The notes beneath the pieces are model-generated. The model was not told where the DNA came from. It did not search any database and saw nothing but the letters and a program-made list of their open reading frames with translations. Shown piece after piece: positions 53,340 through 59,595 of a stretch of DNA of 64,000 nt. Within the stretch, counting starts at the first letter, position 1; each line of letters starts with the position of its first letter. This stretch comes from Marivivens sp. (lineage in GTDB: Bacteria > Pseudomonadota > Alphaproteobacteria > Rhodobacterales > Rhodobacteraceae), in assembly GCA_017643845.1 (NCBI GenBank), contig JAEPMR010000007.1, forward strand, positions 20,964-84,963, read 5' to 3'. Made by a program: the position numbers and the translations under genes.

Positions 53340-54110
53340 ATGCCCAGATACGCGCTGAAAATCGAATATGATGGAACCCCCTTTGCCGGATGGCAGAGAC
53401 AGGCGGATCAGCCTTCTGTGCAAGGCGCGATCGAAGCGGCGCTGGCGAAGCTTGAGCCACGTGAGCACACCATTGCGGCAGCTGGGCGGACGGATGCGGG
53501 CGTGCATGCCACGGGACAGGTTGCGCAGTGCGATATGGAGAAGGACTGGGATCCGTTCCGGCTTTCGGAGGCGCTGAACTTTCACCTCAAGCCGGAGCCT
53601 GTCGCGATCCTCGATTGTGCGCGGGTAGCGGACGACTGGCACGCGCGGTTCAGCGCGGTCGAGCGGCGCTATATGTTCCGGCTGATCAGCCGCCGCGCAC
53701 CGCTGACCCACGATCGGAAACTGGCATGGCGGGTGAACCATATGCTGGATGCGGACGCGATGCGGGAAGGGGCGAACCATCTGATCGGAAAGCATGATTT
53801 CACCACGTTCCGGTCGTCGATCTGTCAGGCGGACAGCCCTGTAAAAACGCTTGATGCGCTGGAGGTGGAGACACATCGCGGCGCGGATCAGACCGAGTTC
53901 AGATTTCACGTTCGGGCGCGGTCGTTCCTGCACAATCAGGTGCGCAGCTTCGTCGGCACGCTGGAGCGGGTGGGCGCGGGAGCCTGGGCGCCGGAGGATG
54001 TGAAAACGGCGCTGGAGGCGCGGGACCGTGCGGCCTGTGGGCCGGTCAGTCCACCGGATGGGCTATACCTCGTCGGGGTGGGATACGCCGACGATCCATT
54101 CGCCCGATAA
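53340..54110 (+). CDS. truA: tRNA pseudouridine(38-40) synthase
   Basis: [21 protein letters not shown]...; [19 protein letters not shown]. Confidence 0.97.
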
Positions 54111-54401
54111 GCCGGAAATTTACCTTTTCTTAATCACAAAACGCACCTTTCACGGGAGCCATGCATATCGTTTCGAATGCGGGATTTTCGTGCGGTATTC
54201 GTGAGGTCAGTATCGCAAGGGGTGGATAACAAATTCTTGTGCCTGCGGTGATGGGCAGGGAATTCGGTGTGAGGAACCCCGTAAAACCAATAAAGATCAA
54301 GATATTAGACACCCAATGCCATGACAAAAAACTATGTTCGGCAATTCCGCGCCGATTGCGTTTCTGCCATTCAAGCCCCGCCGGAAAGGGGCTAGATTGG
54401 G

Positions 54402-54445
54402 GATGCACAACCTATGCACAACCGATGCACATTCCATGCATATCG
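54402..54445. repeat. 11-bp-periodic ATGCACA array upstream of tamA
   Basis: ATGCACA at 54403, 54414, 54425 and ATGCATA at 54436; start positions exactly 11 bp apart. Confidence 0.85.
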
Positions 54446-54475
54446 CAGGTGCAGAAACGTTAACGGAACCTTGAC

Positions 54476-56338
54476 GTGACAACGCGCCCGAACGACCGCC
54501 GATTCAGACCGATAGCAACGCTCGCGCGTGCCGCGGCCTGCGCTTTGTTGCTGGGAAACACGGCAGGACAGATGCAGGCCCAAGACCTGCTTTTTGACAT
54601 TCGGGCCGGAGATCAGAGTGTGGAGACCACGCGTGAATTACGCGGACGGCTGGAGCGGGCGTCGCTCCTGTCCAGCACATTGGAGGGCGCGGGGGGAGAC
54701 CCCGCCCTGCCGCAAGACGTGATTGCCGCCGCCCGCGCCGATTATCAACGGCTGATTGCGGTGCTCTACGAGGCGGGTCATTTCGGGGCGAGCTTGTCGA
54801 TCACGCTGGATGGGCGGGAAGCGGTGACGCTTTCGCCGCTGGACCGGCCCGATGGGATTGAGACCATTGCCGTGCGGATCGAGCCGGGACCGGTCTACCG
54901 GTTTGCGACTGCCGAAATAGGACCTCTGCCCGACGGCACGGATATCGCGCTGCCGGAGGCGTTCCGCTCCGGCGCCGTGGCCGGAACAGCGATGATCCGC
55001 ACAGCGGCCGAGGCCGGTGTCGCGGCATGGCGGGCGGCGGGGCATCCGCTGGCCCAAATCGCAGCGCAAGACATCACGGCGCAACATGACAGTGAAAGTC
55101 TGGACGCGCGGCTGGTGATCGAACCGGGGCCAGTGGCCGATATCGCGCAGCCGAGCATCGGCGGAAACACCGCCACCCGCAGCACCCGCGTGGCGCAAAT
55201 AGCAGGGCTGAAGGCGGGGACACGCTATAGCCCGACCGCGCTCGATGCGGCGGCAAAACGCCTGCGGGACACCGGGACTTTCGGCACCGTGGTGATCCGC
55301 GAGGGCGATGCGCTCGACGGTAACGGACAGCTGCCAATCGACATTCAGGTCAGCGAGCAACTGCCCCGCCGCTACGGATTCGGCGCCGAAGTTTCGACCA
55401 CCGAGGGGCTGACCGTCAGCGGCTTCTGGATGCACAGGAACCTGTTGGGCGGCGCCGAAAACCTGCGGATTAATGCCGAGGTTGCGGGACTGGCGGGAGA
55501 GACCGGCGGGATCGATACGACGCTGGACGCGACATTGCGGCGGCCCGCGACGTTTACATCGAAAATCGACATGGTGGCGACGGCGGAATTGATGCGGCTT
55601 GACGAGCCGGATTTCCGGCTGGACCAACTGCGCGCCGGCGTCAGTTTCGAGCGCGATGTGACGCGGACTCTGACGCTCTCGGGCGGGGTATCGGCGGCGA
55701 CGGCGCGCAGCGAGGAAGGCGCAGTTACCCGCAGCTACAGCTATGCCGCATTGCCGATCACGGGTGAATGGGAGCGGCGCGACGATCCGAACGCACCGAC
55801 GCGAGGCAGTTTCGCGCGGCTGGAACTGACCCCGTTTGCCGGTGTCGGCGATCTGGACAGCGGGCTGCGCGCACGGGCCGAGGGGCGCGGCTATATTCCG
55901 GTGGGCGACGGCGACAGTCCCAGCATCCTCGCGCTGCGTGGACAGGCAGGGACGGTCATCGGGGCGAGCGCGACGCGGGCACCGGCGGATTTCCTTTTTC
56001 ACAGTGGCGGGGGCGATACGGTGCGCGGCCAGCCCTATCAGGCGCTGGGGGCGGACCTTTCCGGCGACGGGGCGAGCGGGGCGGGCGCTTTTGCGACGCT
56101 CAGTGCCGAATGGCGGCAGCCGCTGCGCGGGGCGTTCGGGATGGTGGCCTTTATCGATGCCGGATGGGTCGCGGCGGATATCACCGGCGCCGACAGCGAC
56201 TGGCACGCAGGCGCGGGACTGGGACTGCGCTATGAAACGGGCATCGGCCCGGTAAGGCTCGATATCGCGACGCCACTCGGCAATGGCGAGACCGGCGACG
56301 GTGTGAGCCTCTATGTGGGGATCGGGCAGGCGTTTTGA
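54476..56338 (+). CDS. tamA: Omp85-family outer membrane protein TamA
   Basis: GTG start, signal peptide, POTRA-like repeats, C-terminal beta-barrel ending YVGIGQAF; overlaps tamB by 4 bp. Confidence 0.9.
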   Translation: MTTRPNDRRFRPIATLARAAACALLLGNTAGQMQAQDLLFDIRAGDQSVETTRELRGRLERASLLSSTLEGAGGDPALPQDVIAAARADYQRLIAVLYEAGHFGASLSITLDGREAVTLSPLDRPDGIETIAVRIEPGPVYRFATAEIGPLPDGTDIALPEAFRSGAVAGTAMIRTAAEAGVAAWRAAGHPLAQIAAQDITAQHDSESLDARLVIEPGPVADIAQPSIGGNTATRSTRVAQIAGLKAGTRYSPTALDAAAKRLRDTGTFGTVVIREGDALDGNGQLPIDIQVSEQLPRRYGFGAEVSTTEGLTVSGFWMHRNLLGGAENLRINAEVAGLAGETGGIDTTLDATLRRPATFTSKIDMVATAELMRLDEPDFRLDQLRAGVSFERDVTRTLTLSGGVSAATARSEEGAVTRSYSYAALPITGEWERRDDPNAPTRGSFARLELTPFAGVGDLDSGLRARAEGRGYIPVGDGDSPSILALRGQAGTVIGASATRAPADFLFHSGGGDTVRGQPYQALGADLSGDGASGAGAFATLSAEWRQPLRGAFGMVAFIDAGWVAADITGADSDWHAGAGLGLRYETGIGPVRLDIATPLGNGETGDGVSLYVGIGQAF

Positions 56339-59300
56339 TGCGGATCGTCCAAAAACCCCTCGTTTTGTTTTGTATCATGCTGCTGCCGTTCATGGCTGCA
56401 GCTCAAGAGGCCGAGGACAAAGGCTTTCTGACACGGCTCATCGAGGGAAGCCTCTCGGGTGACGGGCGCGATGTGGAAATCACGGGCTTTGCCGGTGCGC
56501 TGAGCGCGCGGGCGACGATCACGCGGCTGAGCGTTGCGGATGCAGATGGCATCTGGCTGGATATGCACGATCTGGTTCTGGATTGGGACCGTGCTGCCCT
56601 GATTTCCGGGGCGCTGGTGGTGCGGGAACTCTCGGCCGCGCGGATCGACCTGCTGCGCCGCCCCGTGCCCCCGCCCGGCGCATTGCCGGATGCAGAGGCG
56701 CGGGCGTGGCGTCTGCCGGACCTGCCGGTGAGCGTAGACATTGGCGCAGTGCAGGCCAAAGAGATCACGCTGGGGGCGGATTTGTTGGGAGAACCCGTCG
56801 CGCTACGGCTCGACGGGCGGGGCACATTGGCGGACGGGGTGCTCGATGTGGCGCTGGAAGCTGACCGCAGCGACGGAGCCGAGGGAGCGCTGAGGCTCGC
56901 GCTAAGGCGCGACGAGCTGGACGACCATCTGGAGGTGACTTTGGCCCTGCGCGAAGGTGCCGGCGGGATCGCGGCGCGAGCGCTTGACCTGCCCGGCCTG
57001 CCGCCCGTGGCGCTGGAGGTGCGTGGCACGGGGCCGGTGGCCGATTTTGCGGCCGATATTGCGCTGGAGACCGATGGTGCGGCGCGGCTGACCGGATCGG
57101 TAGGAGCACGGGCGACGGATGGCGGCGCGACGCGCTGGCGGCTGGACTTGAAGGGCGATGTGCGGGCGCTGGTGACGGCGGACTATCATCCGTTCTTCGG
57201 CGCGGAGAGCGGAGTGGAAGCGCTGGTGACGCGCACGGCGGAGGGCGGAACCGAAATCGAGCGGATCGCGGTGGCAACCGGAGCCCTACAGATCAACGGC
57301 GCTGGCGCACTCGATGCGGACGGCTGGCCGCGCCGGATGGCGCTGAGCGCGACGCTGGACAGCGAAAACGGCGCACCGCTGCGCCTGCCGGTCGCGGGGG
57401 CCGAGACCTCGGTCGCGGGCGGGCGTCTGGAACTGGCGTTCGATGCTGCGCGGGGAGAGCGCTGGCGGCTGGACGCAGCGCTGAACGGATTGACGCGCGG
57501 CGGCATGGTGCTGCCCGAGCTGACGCTGGCAGGCGGTGGGCGGATCGCGGGGCTGGAAAGCCTGGATGCGGCGGATCATCTCTTTACCGCCGATCTGAAA
57601 ATGGCCGCGCGGGAGATGCGTTTTGATACTGCGGCGCTCTCGGATGCGCTGGGATCGGAACTGGCCGGACAGCTGACGTTGGAACGGCAGGGCGACGGAC
57701 CGCTGCGCGTGACGCGGGTGGATGTCACTGGGCCGGATTTGCGGCTCGACGGCGCGGCGGAGCTGGGATTTGCCCCGTTTGTGATCAGCGGCTCTCTTGC
57801 AGCTGGGACCGACAATCTGGGCCGGTTCAGCGCGTTGGCGGGGCGGACACTGGGTGGGGCCGGTGATCTGGAAGTCCTTGCACGCTACGCGCCTGCAGAC
57901 GGGGCGCTGCGGCTCGACCTGCGCGGCGACACGACGGATCTGACGCTGGACCAGCCGGAGGTCGACGCGATCCTTCGGGGAGCAGGCACAGTGCGGCTGG
58001 CGCTTGAGCGGGACACCACCGGCACGCGGCTGGAGACGCTCGACCTGCGAACCGCAAACGGATCGGTGGCTGCGTCAGGCGCGATTTCGAGTGCCGAGGG
58101 GCAGGCCGAATTCCGCGCGCGCGTGGCGGATATCGGACTGTTGGTGCCAGAGCTGCGCGGCCCTGCGGAGATCAGCGCGGAGGCGCGCAGACCGGCGGGG
58201 CGCAGCGATTGGGATATCCGCATCGACGGCGAGGGACCGGGCCAGATCACGCTGGCGGCGGAGGGCAGTCTGGCCGAAGACATGAGCCGCGCACGCGGCA
58301 CGCTCAGCGGGACTGCGCCGCTGGGCCTCGCCAATCCGCTGATCGAGCCGCGACGGATCGGCGGGCTGACACGCTATGACCTGCGGATCGACGGACCGGC
58401 GCGGCTGGAAGCGCTGCGGGGGACGATTTCGATTGCTGACGCACGGCTGACCGCGCCGACCTTCGGGCAGGCACTGGAAGCGATCGGCGGCACGGTCCGG
58501 CTGGAGAACGGGGCGGCGACGATCGATCTGGGTGCGACTCTGGCGCCGGAATCAGGCGCGGTCCGGCTGACCGGGCGGCTGGGTCTGGCACCACCGTTCG
58601 ACAGCACCCTGACCGCCGCACTGGACCAACTGATCGTGCGTGATCCAGCGCTCTACGAGGCCACGGTGAACGGGACTTTGACGCTCGGGGGGCCGCTGGC
58701 GCGCAGTCGGTTGAGCGGGGACATCCAAATTCCGACGGCCGAATTGCGTGTGCCGTCCTCTCCGATTGGGGTGGTGGGGAATCTGCCGCCAATCCGCCAC
58801 CGCGCAGCCGACAGCGCAATCCGGCAAACGCTGGAGCGTGCCGGTTTGACACTGGACGGGACCGAAGCCGACAGCACCGGCGGACCAAGCACAGGCGGCG
58901 GTGTCGCTGTCGATCTGAGGATCGACGCGCCACAGCGGATTTTCGTACGCGGACGGGGGCTGGATGCAGAGCTGGGCGGACAACTGACGCTGACAGGTCA
59001 GGGCGGCAATATTGTCCCGCAGGGGCAGTTTGACCTGATACGTGGGCGGCTGGATATTCTGCAGCAGCGCTTTACCCTCACCGAAGGCGCGGCACGGGTC
59101 GAGGGTGATTTCGTGCCGGTTCTGCGATTGGTCGCGAGCACGACGACGCGAACGGGGCTGGATGTGAACATCATCATCGAAGGCCGTGCCGACGCACCGG
59201 AAATCCGGCTCACATCACTGCCGGACCTGCCCGAGGACGAAATTCTCGCACAGCTCATTTTCGGGCGGGATTTTTCCGAGATCACGCCGCTGCAAGCGGT

Positions 59301-59595
59301 GCAACTGGCGAGCGCCGCCAGCACGCTGGCGGGCCGCGACAGCGGTCTGCTCAACCAGATCCGCAGCGGCATCGGGCTGGACGATCTGGATGTGGTCACG
59401 ACAAGCGAAGGCGCGGCAGCGGTCAGGCTGGGACAGTATCTGGGGGAAAACCTCTATACCGGCGTGGAGATCGGCAGCGACGGACGCAGCGCGATCACGC
59501 TGAACCTCGATATCGCGCCGGGGGTGACAGCGCGGGGCAGTACGGCAAATGATGGCGAGAGCAGCCTCGGGATTTTCTTCGAGAAAGACTACTAA
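56335..59595 (+). CDS. tamB: Translocation and assembly module protein TamB
   Basis: 1086 aa, N-terminal signal/anchor, C-terminal DUF490: LVASTTTRTGLDVNIIIEGRADAPEIRLTSLPDLPEDEILAQLIFGRDFSEI. Confidence 0.93.
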   Translation: MMRIVQKPLVLFCIMLLPFMAAAQEAEDKGFLTRLIEGSLSGDGRDVEITGFAGALSARATITRLSVADADGIWLDMHDLVLDWDRAALISGALVVRELSAARIDLLRRPVPPPGALPDAEARAWRLPDLPVSVDIGAVQAKEITLGADLLGEPVALRLDGRGTLADGVLDVALEADRSDGAEGALRLALRRDELDDHLEVTLALREGAGGIAARALDLPGLPPVALEVRGTGPVADFAADIALETDGAARLTGSVGARATDGGATRWRLDLKGDVRALVTADYHPFFGAESGVEALVTRTAEGGTEIERIAVATGALQINGAGALDADGWPRRMALSATLDSENGAPLRLPVAGAETSVAGGRLELAFDAARGERWRLDAALNGLTRGGMVLPELTLAGGGRIAGLESLDAADHLFTADLKMAAREMRFDTAALSDALGSELAGQLTLERQGDGPLRVTRVDVTGPDLRLDGAAELGFAPFVISGSLAAGTDNLGRFSALAGRTLGGAGDLEVLARYAPADGALRLDLRGDTTDLTLDQPEVDAILRGAGTVRLALERDTTGTRLETLDLRTANGSVAASGAISSAEGQAEFRARVADIGLLVPELRGPAEISAEARRPAGRSDWDIRIDGEGPGQITLAAEGSLAEDMSRARGTLSGTAPLGLANPLIEPRRIGGLTRYDLRIDGPARLEALRGTISIADARLTAPTFGQALEAIGGTVRLENGAATIDLGATLAPESGAVRLTGRLGLAPPFDSTLTAALDQLIVRDPALYEATVNGTLTLGGPLARSRLSGDIQIPTAELRVPSSPIGVVGNLPPIRHRAADSAIRQTLERAGLTLDGTEADSTGGPSTGGGVAVDLRIDAPQRIFVRGRGLDAELGGQLTLTGQGGNIVPQGQFDLIRGRLDILQQRFTLTEGAARVEGDFVPVLRLVASTTTRTGLDVNIIIEGRADAPEIRLTSLPDLPEDEILAQLIFGRDFSEITPLQAVQLASAASTLAGRDSGLLNQIRSGIGLDDLDVVTTSEGAAAVRLGQYLGENLYTGVEIGSDGRSAITLNLDIAPGVTARGSTANDGESSLGIFFEKDY

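Follow-up and report, generated by a model that had tools for sequence, protein, structure and literature searches.

The Array Upstream of tamA

What could be the role of four almost identical words, set head to tail at intervals of exactly 11 bp, a few dozen nucleotides before the start codon of tamA? In the window, by which we mean the whole 64-kb stretch of DNA analysed here (genome G000), three copies of ATGCACA, beginning at 54403, 54414 and 54425, are followed by ATGCATA at 54436, so that the array spans 54403–54442. The initial annotation had described this array exactly, and TRF also detects it independently. It ends about 33 bp 5′ of the GTG at 54476, and the downstream gene had been correctly named: it encodes an Omp85 and POTRA protein and is followed by TamB. 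Rfam gave no match over 53900–54900 at E values up to 1. The features of the locus, together with a second array in the window, are as follows.

54403–54409, + strand: array unit 1, ATGCACA; the unit under the least constraint (G000 against its congener G001: 0.065 substitutions per site)
54414–54420, + strand: array unit 2, ATGCACA; cores 2–4 jointly 0.004 substitutions per site
54425–54431, + strand: array unit 3, ATGCACA; from the sequence and the G000/G001 comparison
54436–54442, + strand: terminal unit ATGCATA; a distinct last word common to the arrays of the genus
54443–54454, + strand: conserved 3′ tail TCGCA-NNN-GCAG; in most G000/G001 arrays, 0.08 substitutions per site
54460–54474, + strand: CtrA-box-like word TTAA-N7-TTGA; present 3′ of many of the genus's arrays, though not of all
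54476–56338, + strand: tamA, a mere neighbour; Omp85 and POTRA domains, then TamB
56335–59595, + strand: tamB, a mere neighbour; TamB, directly after tamA
about 2241–2270, + strand: second array, GATGCACAACCGATGCACAATCCATGCATA, that is, ATGCACA twice and ATGCATA; a degenerate unit ATACGCA at 2231; antisense within a deoB-like gene

Since its roughly four direct units, set 11 bp apart on the same face of the helix, close with a modified last one and a tail, the array has a direction. A CtrA-box-like TTAA-N7-TTAA lies 3′ of many G000 and G001 arrays, and at three loci of G377 (L115, L116 and L119) TTAA-N6-TTAA takes its place.

A Dispersed Set of Conserved Copies

The arrangement recurs throughout the genome. 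The pattern ATGCAYA-N4-ATGCAYA, with up to one mismatch, has 79 matches in the window's own genome and its reversed-pattern control none; with three units the numbers are 46 and 0. Thus, the 11-bp arrangement is far more frequent genome-wide than its controls, a check that the initial annotation had proposed. When merged, the matches resolve into about 25 arrays in the 3.19-Mb genome. In the sole congener compared, G001, where a single 2.97-Mb contig holds the chromosome and the assembly has a second contig besides, there are 26 arrays and none in reversed-pattern controls; here the array upstream of tamA is retained, as a binding platform shared by close relatives had been expected to be. Single ATGCACA words occur in the window at chance frequency (8 observed, 8.8 expected), so the signal lies in the arrangement and not in the word. 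Nearly all arrays of the two genomes share one anatomy, with ATGCACA three times, then ATGCATA and usually TCGCA-NNN-GCAG. A literature search on the array word returned only unrelated papers, mostly on primers, and none on such arrays, within a partial coverage of the literature that does not prove absence.

Twenty-four arrays occupy orthologous gene junctions in G000 and G001. Between these, cores 2–4 differ at 0.4% of positions, compared with 6.5% in core 1, 8% in the tail, 27% (0.274) in the spacers and approximately 34% in the 5′ flank. The 11-bp phase is intact throughout; the letters of the spacers are of little weight and the words matter. Because the cores are near-invariant while spacers and flanks diverge, the arrays are under selection, and for the cores this is strong purifying selection at a fixed helical repeat. 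The earlier suggestion of a multi-site binding platform is supported by these observations.

Mobile elements deserve consideration for any set of dispersed repeats. Some transposons (Tn7-like, IS200/IS605) show a replication-related strand bias and a spacing of tens of kb, and the arrays, which display both properties (see below), could derive from transposon-end-like or REP-like elements with an insertion bias set by the direction of replication and with target immunity keeping them apart. However, REP or MITE copies would be non-orthologous and evolve like their flanks, whereas here the cores are kept at fixed orthologous sites amid diverging flanks, and junctions are shared between genera even when the cores differ. 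No second end or cargo was noticed, and a 64-bp consensus had no BLAST match among 72,556 plasmid and 50,697 phage records. We consider a mobile origin improbable. A phage or plasmid origin was rejected, as the IMG/VR matches are unrelated DnaA-box-like or simple repeats and the plasmid and phage records yielded no BLAST match.

Orientation, Spacing and Gene Context

Taking GC skew as a proxy for the leading strand and the direction of replication, which is itself inferred from it, the strand of ATGCACA-type arrays equals the local skew sign in 26/26 cases in G001, 26/27 in G344, 7/7 in G274, 8/8 in G377 and 6/7 in G104; in G342 the skew is followed in just 3 of 6 arrays. With a different core, the agreement is 17/17 in G172 and 6/8 in G050. 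At loci where the genes oppose the array, the skew still agrees in 14/14, 16/16, 6/6 and 2/2 cases. A plain two-replichore split of G001 accounts for 22 of the 26, and the four exceptions lie where the skew is locally reversed. In the G344 chromosome (CP051231), the skew sign flips many times between adjacent arrays and the array strands flip along with it, which suggests a mis-ordered MAG scaffold; array strands could therefore help to check assembly order.

The arrays are also mutually over-dispersed, with a separation of at least ~20 kb in G001 and G344. The coefficient of variation of the G001 gaps is 0.525, where random placement gives 0.948 ± 0.166 (P = 1e-4), and the smallest gap is 21 kb; among 55 arrays of G344 the minimum gap is 19.6 kb (P about 2e-7).

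Do these arrays regulate the genes beside them? Direct repeats with an 11-bp period are typical of the sites bound by OmpR/PhoB-type response regulators, and the arrays might be operators of one large regulon, on which a factor of this type would oligomerise at ~25–60 genes including tamA. The head-to-tail 11-bp units on one helical face resemble such operators; the arrays are mostly intergenic, some stand right before a start codon, as at tamA, pgl and livH, and the CtrA-like TTAA-N7-TTAA is often found 3′ of the array in the genus. OmpR/PhoB operators, however, are positioned relative to promoters, whereas the arrays ignore gene orientation. The 26 G001 junctions, as typed with a simple mechanical gene caller, comprise 9 convergent, 6 divergent and 11 codirectional cases, 8 of the latter antisense to the array; all four junction types are present, and no fixed orientation or position relative to target genes was found. 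The strands of neighbouring genes relative to the array are equally mixed in G001 (upstream 12+/14−, downstream 9+/17−), and the majority coding strand matches the array strand in only 12/26 loci of G001 and 11/27 of G344. Neighbours include gltB/gltD, leuC/leuD, zwf/pgl, xthA, tamA, rpsP-ffh and arfB, names that except for tamA were assigned by eye from the proteins, and they have no function in common. Near-perfect tracking of GC skew and an exclusion of ~20 kb are likewise unexpected for a regulon, which we regard as an unlikely explanation.

The reading as a tamA promoter or regulon site was rejected because the strand of the genes does not predict that of the arrays and the neighbours lack a shared function. 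The array upstream of tamA is not a tamA promoter element, and a regulator of tamA, as initially proposed, finds no support as the general role of a set whose strand is independent of genes and of which 9/26 members in G001 lie between convergent genes; any influence on tamA would be local and secondary. Since array strand is blind to gene orientation and matches GC skew, the arrays follow replication.

The same independence bears on an element acting at the RNA level, such as an sRNA or a leader within the transcript. Some arrays do lie in short gaps inside operons (livG-livH, gltD-gltB), but array strand is independent of transcription, many of the arrays run antisense or lie between convergent genes, and Rfam has no match at the locus upstream of tamA. 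We give this explanation hardly any credence.

No gene for a DNA-binding protein recurs beside arrays across several genera among the loci listed, and autoregulation by an adjacent reader gene was rejected on this basis. As a separate observation, one array of Oceanicola sp. m2 (CP051231; L200:4978-5313) lies just 3′ of ftsK, ~120 bp after the codons of the FtsK gamma domain.

Relation to DnaA Boxes

The initial annotation had suggested a DnaA-like binder, in which case the arrays would be low-affinity DnaA-box arrays serving as titration sites or helicase-loading platforms. The arrays on which DnaA oligomerises at oriC of E. coli have 9-bp boxes with a head-to-tail spacing of 2 bp, and DnaA-box arrays (oriC, datA, DARS) resemble ours in the ATNCACA part of the word and in the 11-bp head-to-tail period. 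ATGCACA fits positions 3–9 of TTATNCACA, and in marine phage contigs genuine TTATGCACA occurs three times at 11 bp next to TGTGGATAA. The Rhodobacteraceae units, in contrast, all lack TT: none of the 66 in G001 matches TTATNCACA, the dinucleotides before the core being mostly TG, CC and CG and never TT, and TTATNCACA is absent from 208 kb around the G001 arrays. The G at position 5 is invariant in array units, where DnaA accepts any base. DnaA itself is ordinary, with one copy in 23 of 24 genomes and equal HMM scores in array-rich and array-free ones (G342 has a second, weaker match). The arrays differ further in their many dispersed copies and in a core that becomes ATGGAAT in relatives, as in G172. 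A word at 54221, one mismatch from TGTGGATAA, had been cited in support of DnaA and belongs to the background, given nine such near-matches in the window and no exact one. With no unit fitting TTATNCACA, no lineage-specific DnaA and a different core in G172, the DnaA reading was rejected, and we hold it to be very improbable.

Several IMG/VR contigs (L243, L245, L246, L247, L250, L255, L258 and others) carry TTATGCACA three times at 11 bp with repeated TGTGGATAAC flanking it. These are viral DnaA-box arrays with the same period, unrelated to the chromosomal ones.

Same Places and Changed Words in Other Genera

A relaxed four-unit search found the ATGCACA type in 23 of 397 genomes of the family, ten of them with 17–68 matches and the others with single copies or remnants. 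Carriers include Harenicola maris, Paenihalocynthiibacter styelae, Actibacterium atlanticum, Thalassobius sp. I31.1, Thalassovita taeanensis, Vannielia and Oceanicola sp. m2. Across a scan of 84,980 species, every named locus among the matches listed belongs to Rhodobacteraceae.

When the gap 3′ of gltD was compared in 30 genomes, period-11 arrays with another word appeared in G172 (TATGGAATCCG type, three units) and in G024 (GTTCATGC type). G172 has about 20 arrays of the ATGGAAT type, with a distinct last unit of their own, ATGGCAA; the core of G050 is ATGGAAA, and G108, G247 and G020 have a few ATGGAA-type arrays each. Two ATGCACA-type arrays amid the main type of G172 (C114:119338 and C180:37307) are possible relics of a word switch. 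G024 lacks both ATGCACA and ATGGAA arrays and carries a third type, GTTCATGCRNN at 11 bp, in at least two copies (C11 892408; L362, in the gltD gap).

Thirty-three junctions are common to more than one genus, and 12 of these carry arrays of both core types, which mostly agree in side and strand. An array stands at leuC-leuD in both G001 and G050, whose cores differ, at gltD-gltB in G001, G377, Paracoccus, Actibacterium and G172, and downstream of tatC in G377, G344 and G172. About 6 of the 8 arrays of G050 are at junctions of the ATGCACA type, where about 0.5 would be expected by a rough estimate of the chance that a junction is shared (p = 0.07). Only ~28 of 396 sampled genera have either core, ATGCACA or ATGGAA, in searches that cover these two core words and would miss any arrays built on other words in "negative" genera; G004 has no arrays in 400 kb, its TATGGAAA words being single and never arrayed. 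The set is therefore dispensable or replaceable.

A Chromosome-Wide Set of Polar Sites

The features to be explained are the dispersion of the arrays, the selection on their cores, their co-orientation with GC skew independent of genes, the distance of at least ~20 kb between them, the conservation of their positions and the core words that differ by lineage. A polarity tied to replication, the independence from genes and the spacing suggest that the factor involved acts on the chromosome. We find it somewhat probable that the array upstream of tamA is one of a chromosome-wide series of polar signposts, putative protein-binding sites that are read by a protein of drifting specificity and act at the level of the entire chromosome. 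In this view, a DNA-binding protein with a specificity that has shifted from genus to genus would occupy adjacent units, one per helical turn, and form an oligomer with a direction; the resulting filament could be capped by the modified last unit. Such a complex would most likely mark where a DNA motor or a segregation factor is loaded or oriented, comparable to KOPS for FtsK or TRS for TraB; a polar replication-fork barrier, comparable to Ter/Tus, seems less likely.

More tentatively, and with chances that we place slightly below even, the arrays may belong to an undescribed chromosome-maintenance system of Rhodobacteraceae, whose site set has switched its word at least once (ATGCACA to ATGGAAT, and others) with the sites remaining in place. 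As part of that proposal, and just as tentatively, the switch in place may be a bacterial case of concerted evolution of sites and reader. Such a switch without a change of position amounts to a natural experiment, in which a whole site set follows a changing DNA-binding protein. MatP, SlmA and Tus are not known from Alphaproteobacteria, so how chromosome domains and direction are marked there is largely open. With some 25 to 60 copies in each genome, at exactly known positions, the arrays are a defined and selected set of polar sites that makes this question testable.

KOPS resemble the arrays in being polar, leading-strand sites spread round the chromosome, with a motif that may differ by lineage; judged by the skew proxy, the same strand preference is found here (26/26, 26/27, 7/7, 8/8 and 17/17). 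KOPS, however, are single 8-mers at high density, whereas here arrays of ~40 bp (~4 × 11 bp) were mapped at 26–55 per chromosome, at least ~20 kb apart, and no short single motif at high density was found. FtsK itself is probably not the reader, since its canonical gamma domain is near-identical, with the same recognition helix, between array-rich G344 and a genome with hardly any arrays of this kind, G024 (two sequences compared). FtsK gamma was disfavoured as reader on this unchanged helix and on the skew of canonical GGGNAGGG in G001 (33:9), which does not exceed that of other G-rich words.

Ter sites are single sites of ~20 bp around the terminus, unlike the arrays, which are repeats over the entire chromosome. 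The likeness is in the polarity: Tus-bound Ter sites form a polar fork trap whose direction is linked to that of replication (PMC4999828). A further analogue is the short TRS/clt repeats recognised by TraB of Streptomyces, an FtsK-like hexameric translocase; clt-like sequences are also reported from the chromosome (PMC4170104, citing Vogelmann et al. 2011). These repeats differ from the arrays in their 8-bp units, their link to a conjugative plasmid and their phylum.

The Second Array in the Window

The array within the deoB-like gene lies in the same 64-kb window as that of tamA and had gone unnoticed in the initial annotation. It runs against the local GC skew and has no partner in G001 within the set of arrays. 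Its distance to its neighbour in G000 is 16 kb (C115:7112 and 23205), below the ~20 kb seen in G001 and G344. This copy may be a recent or non-functional outlier. Positions 2231–2270 code for CMDCASVVHPM in the deoB-like protein, an apparent variable loop.
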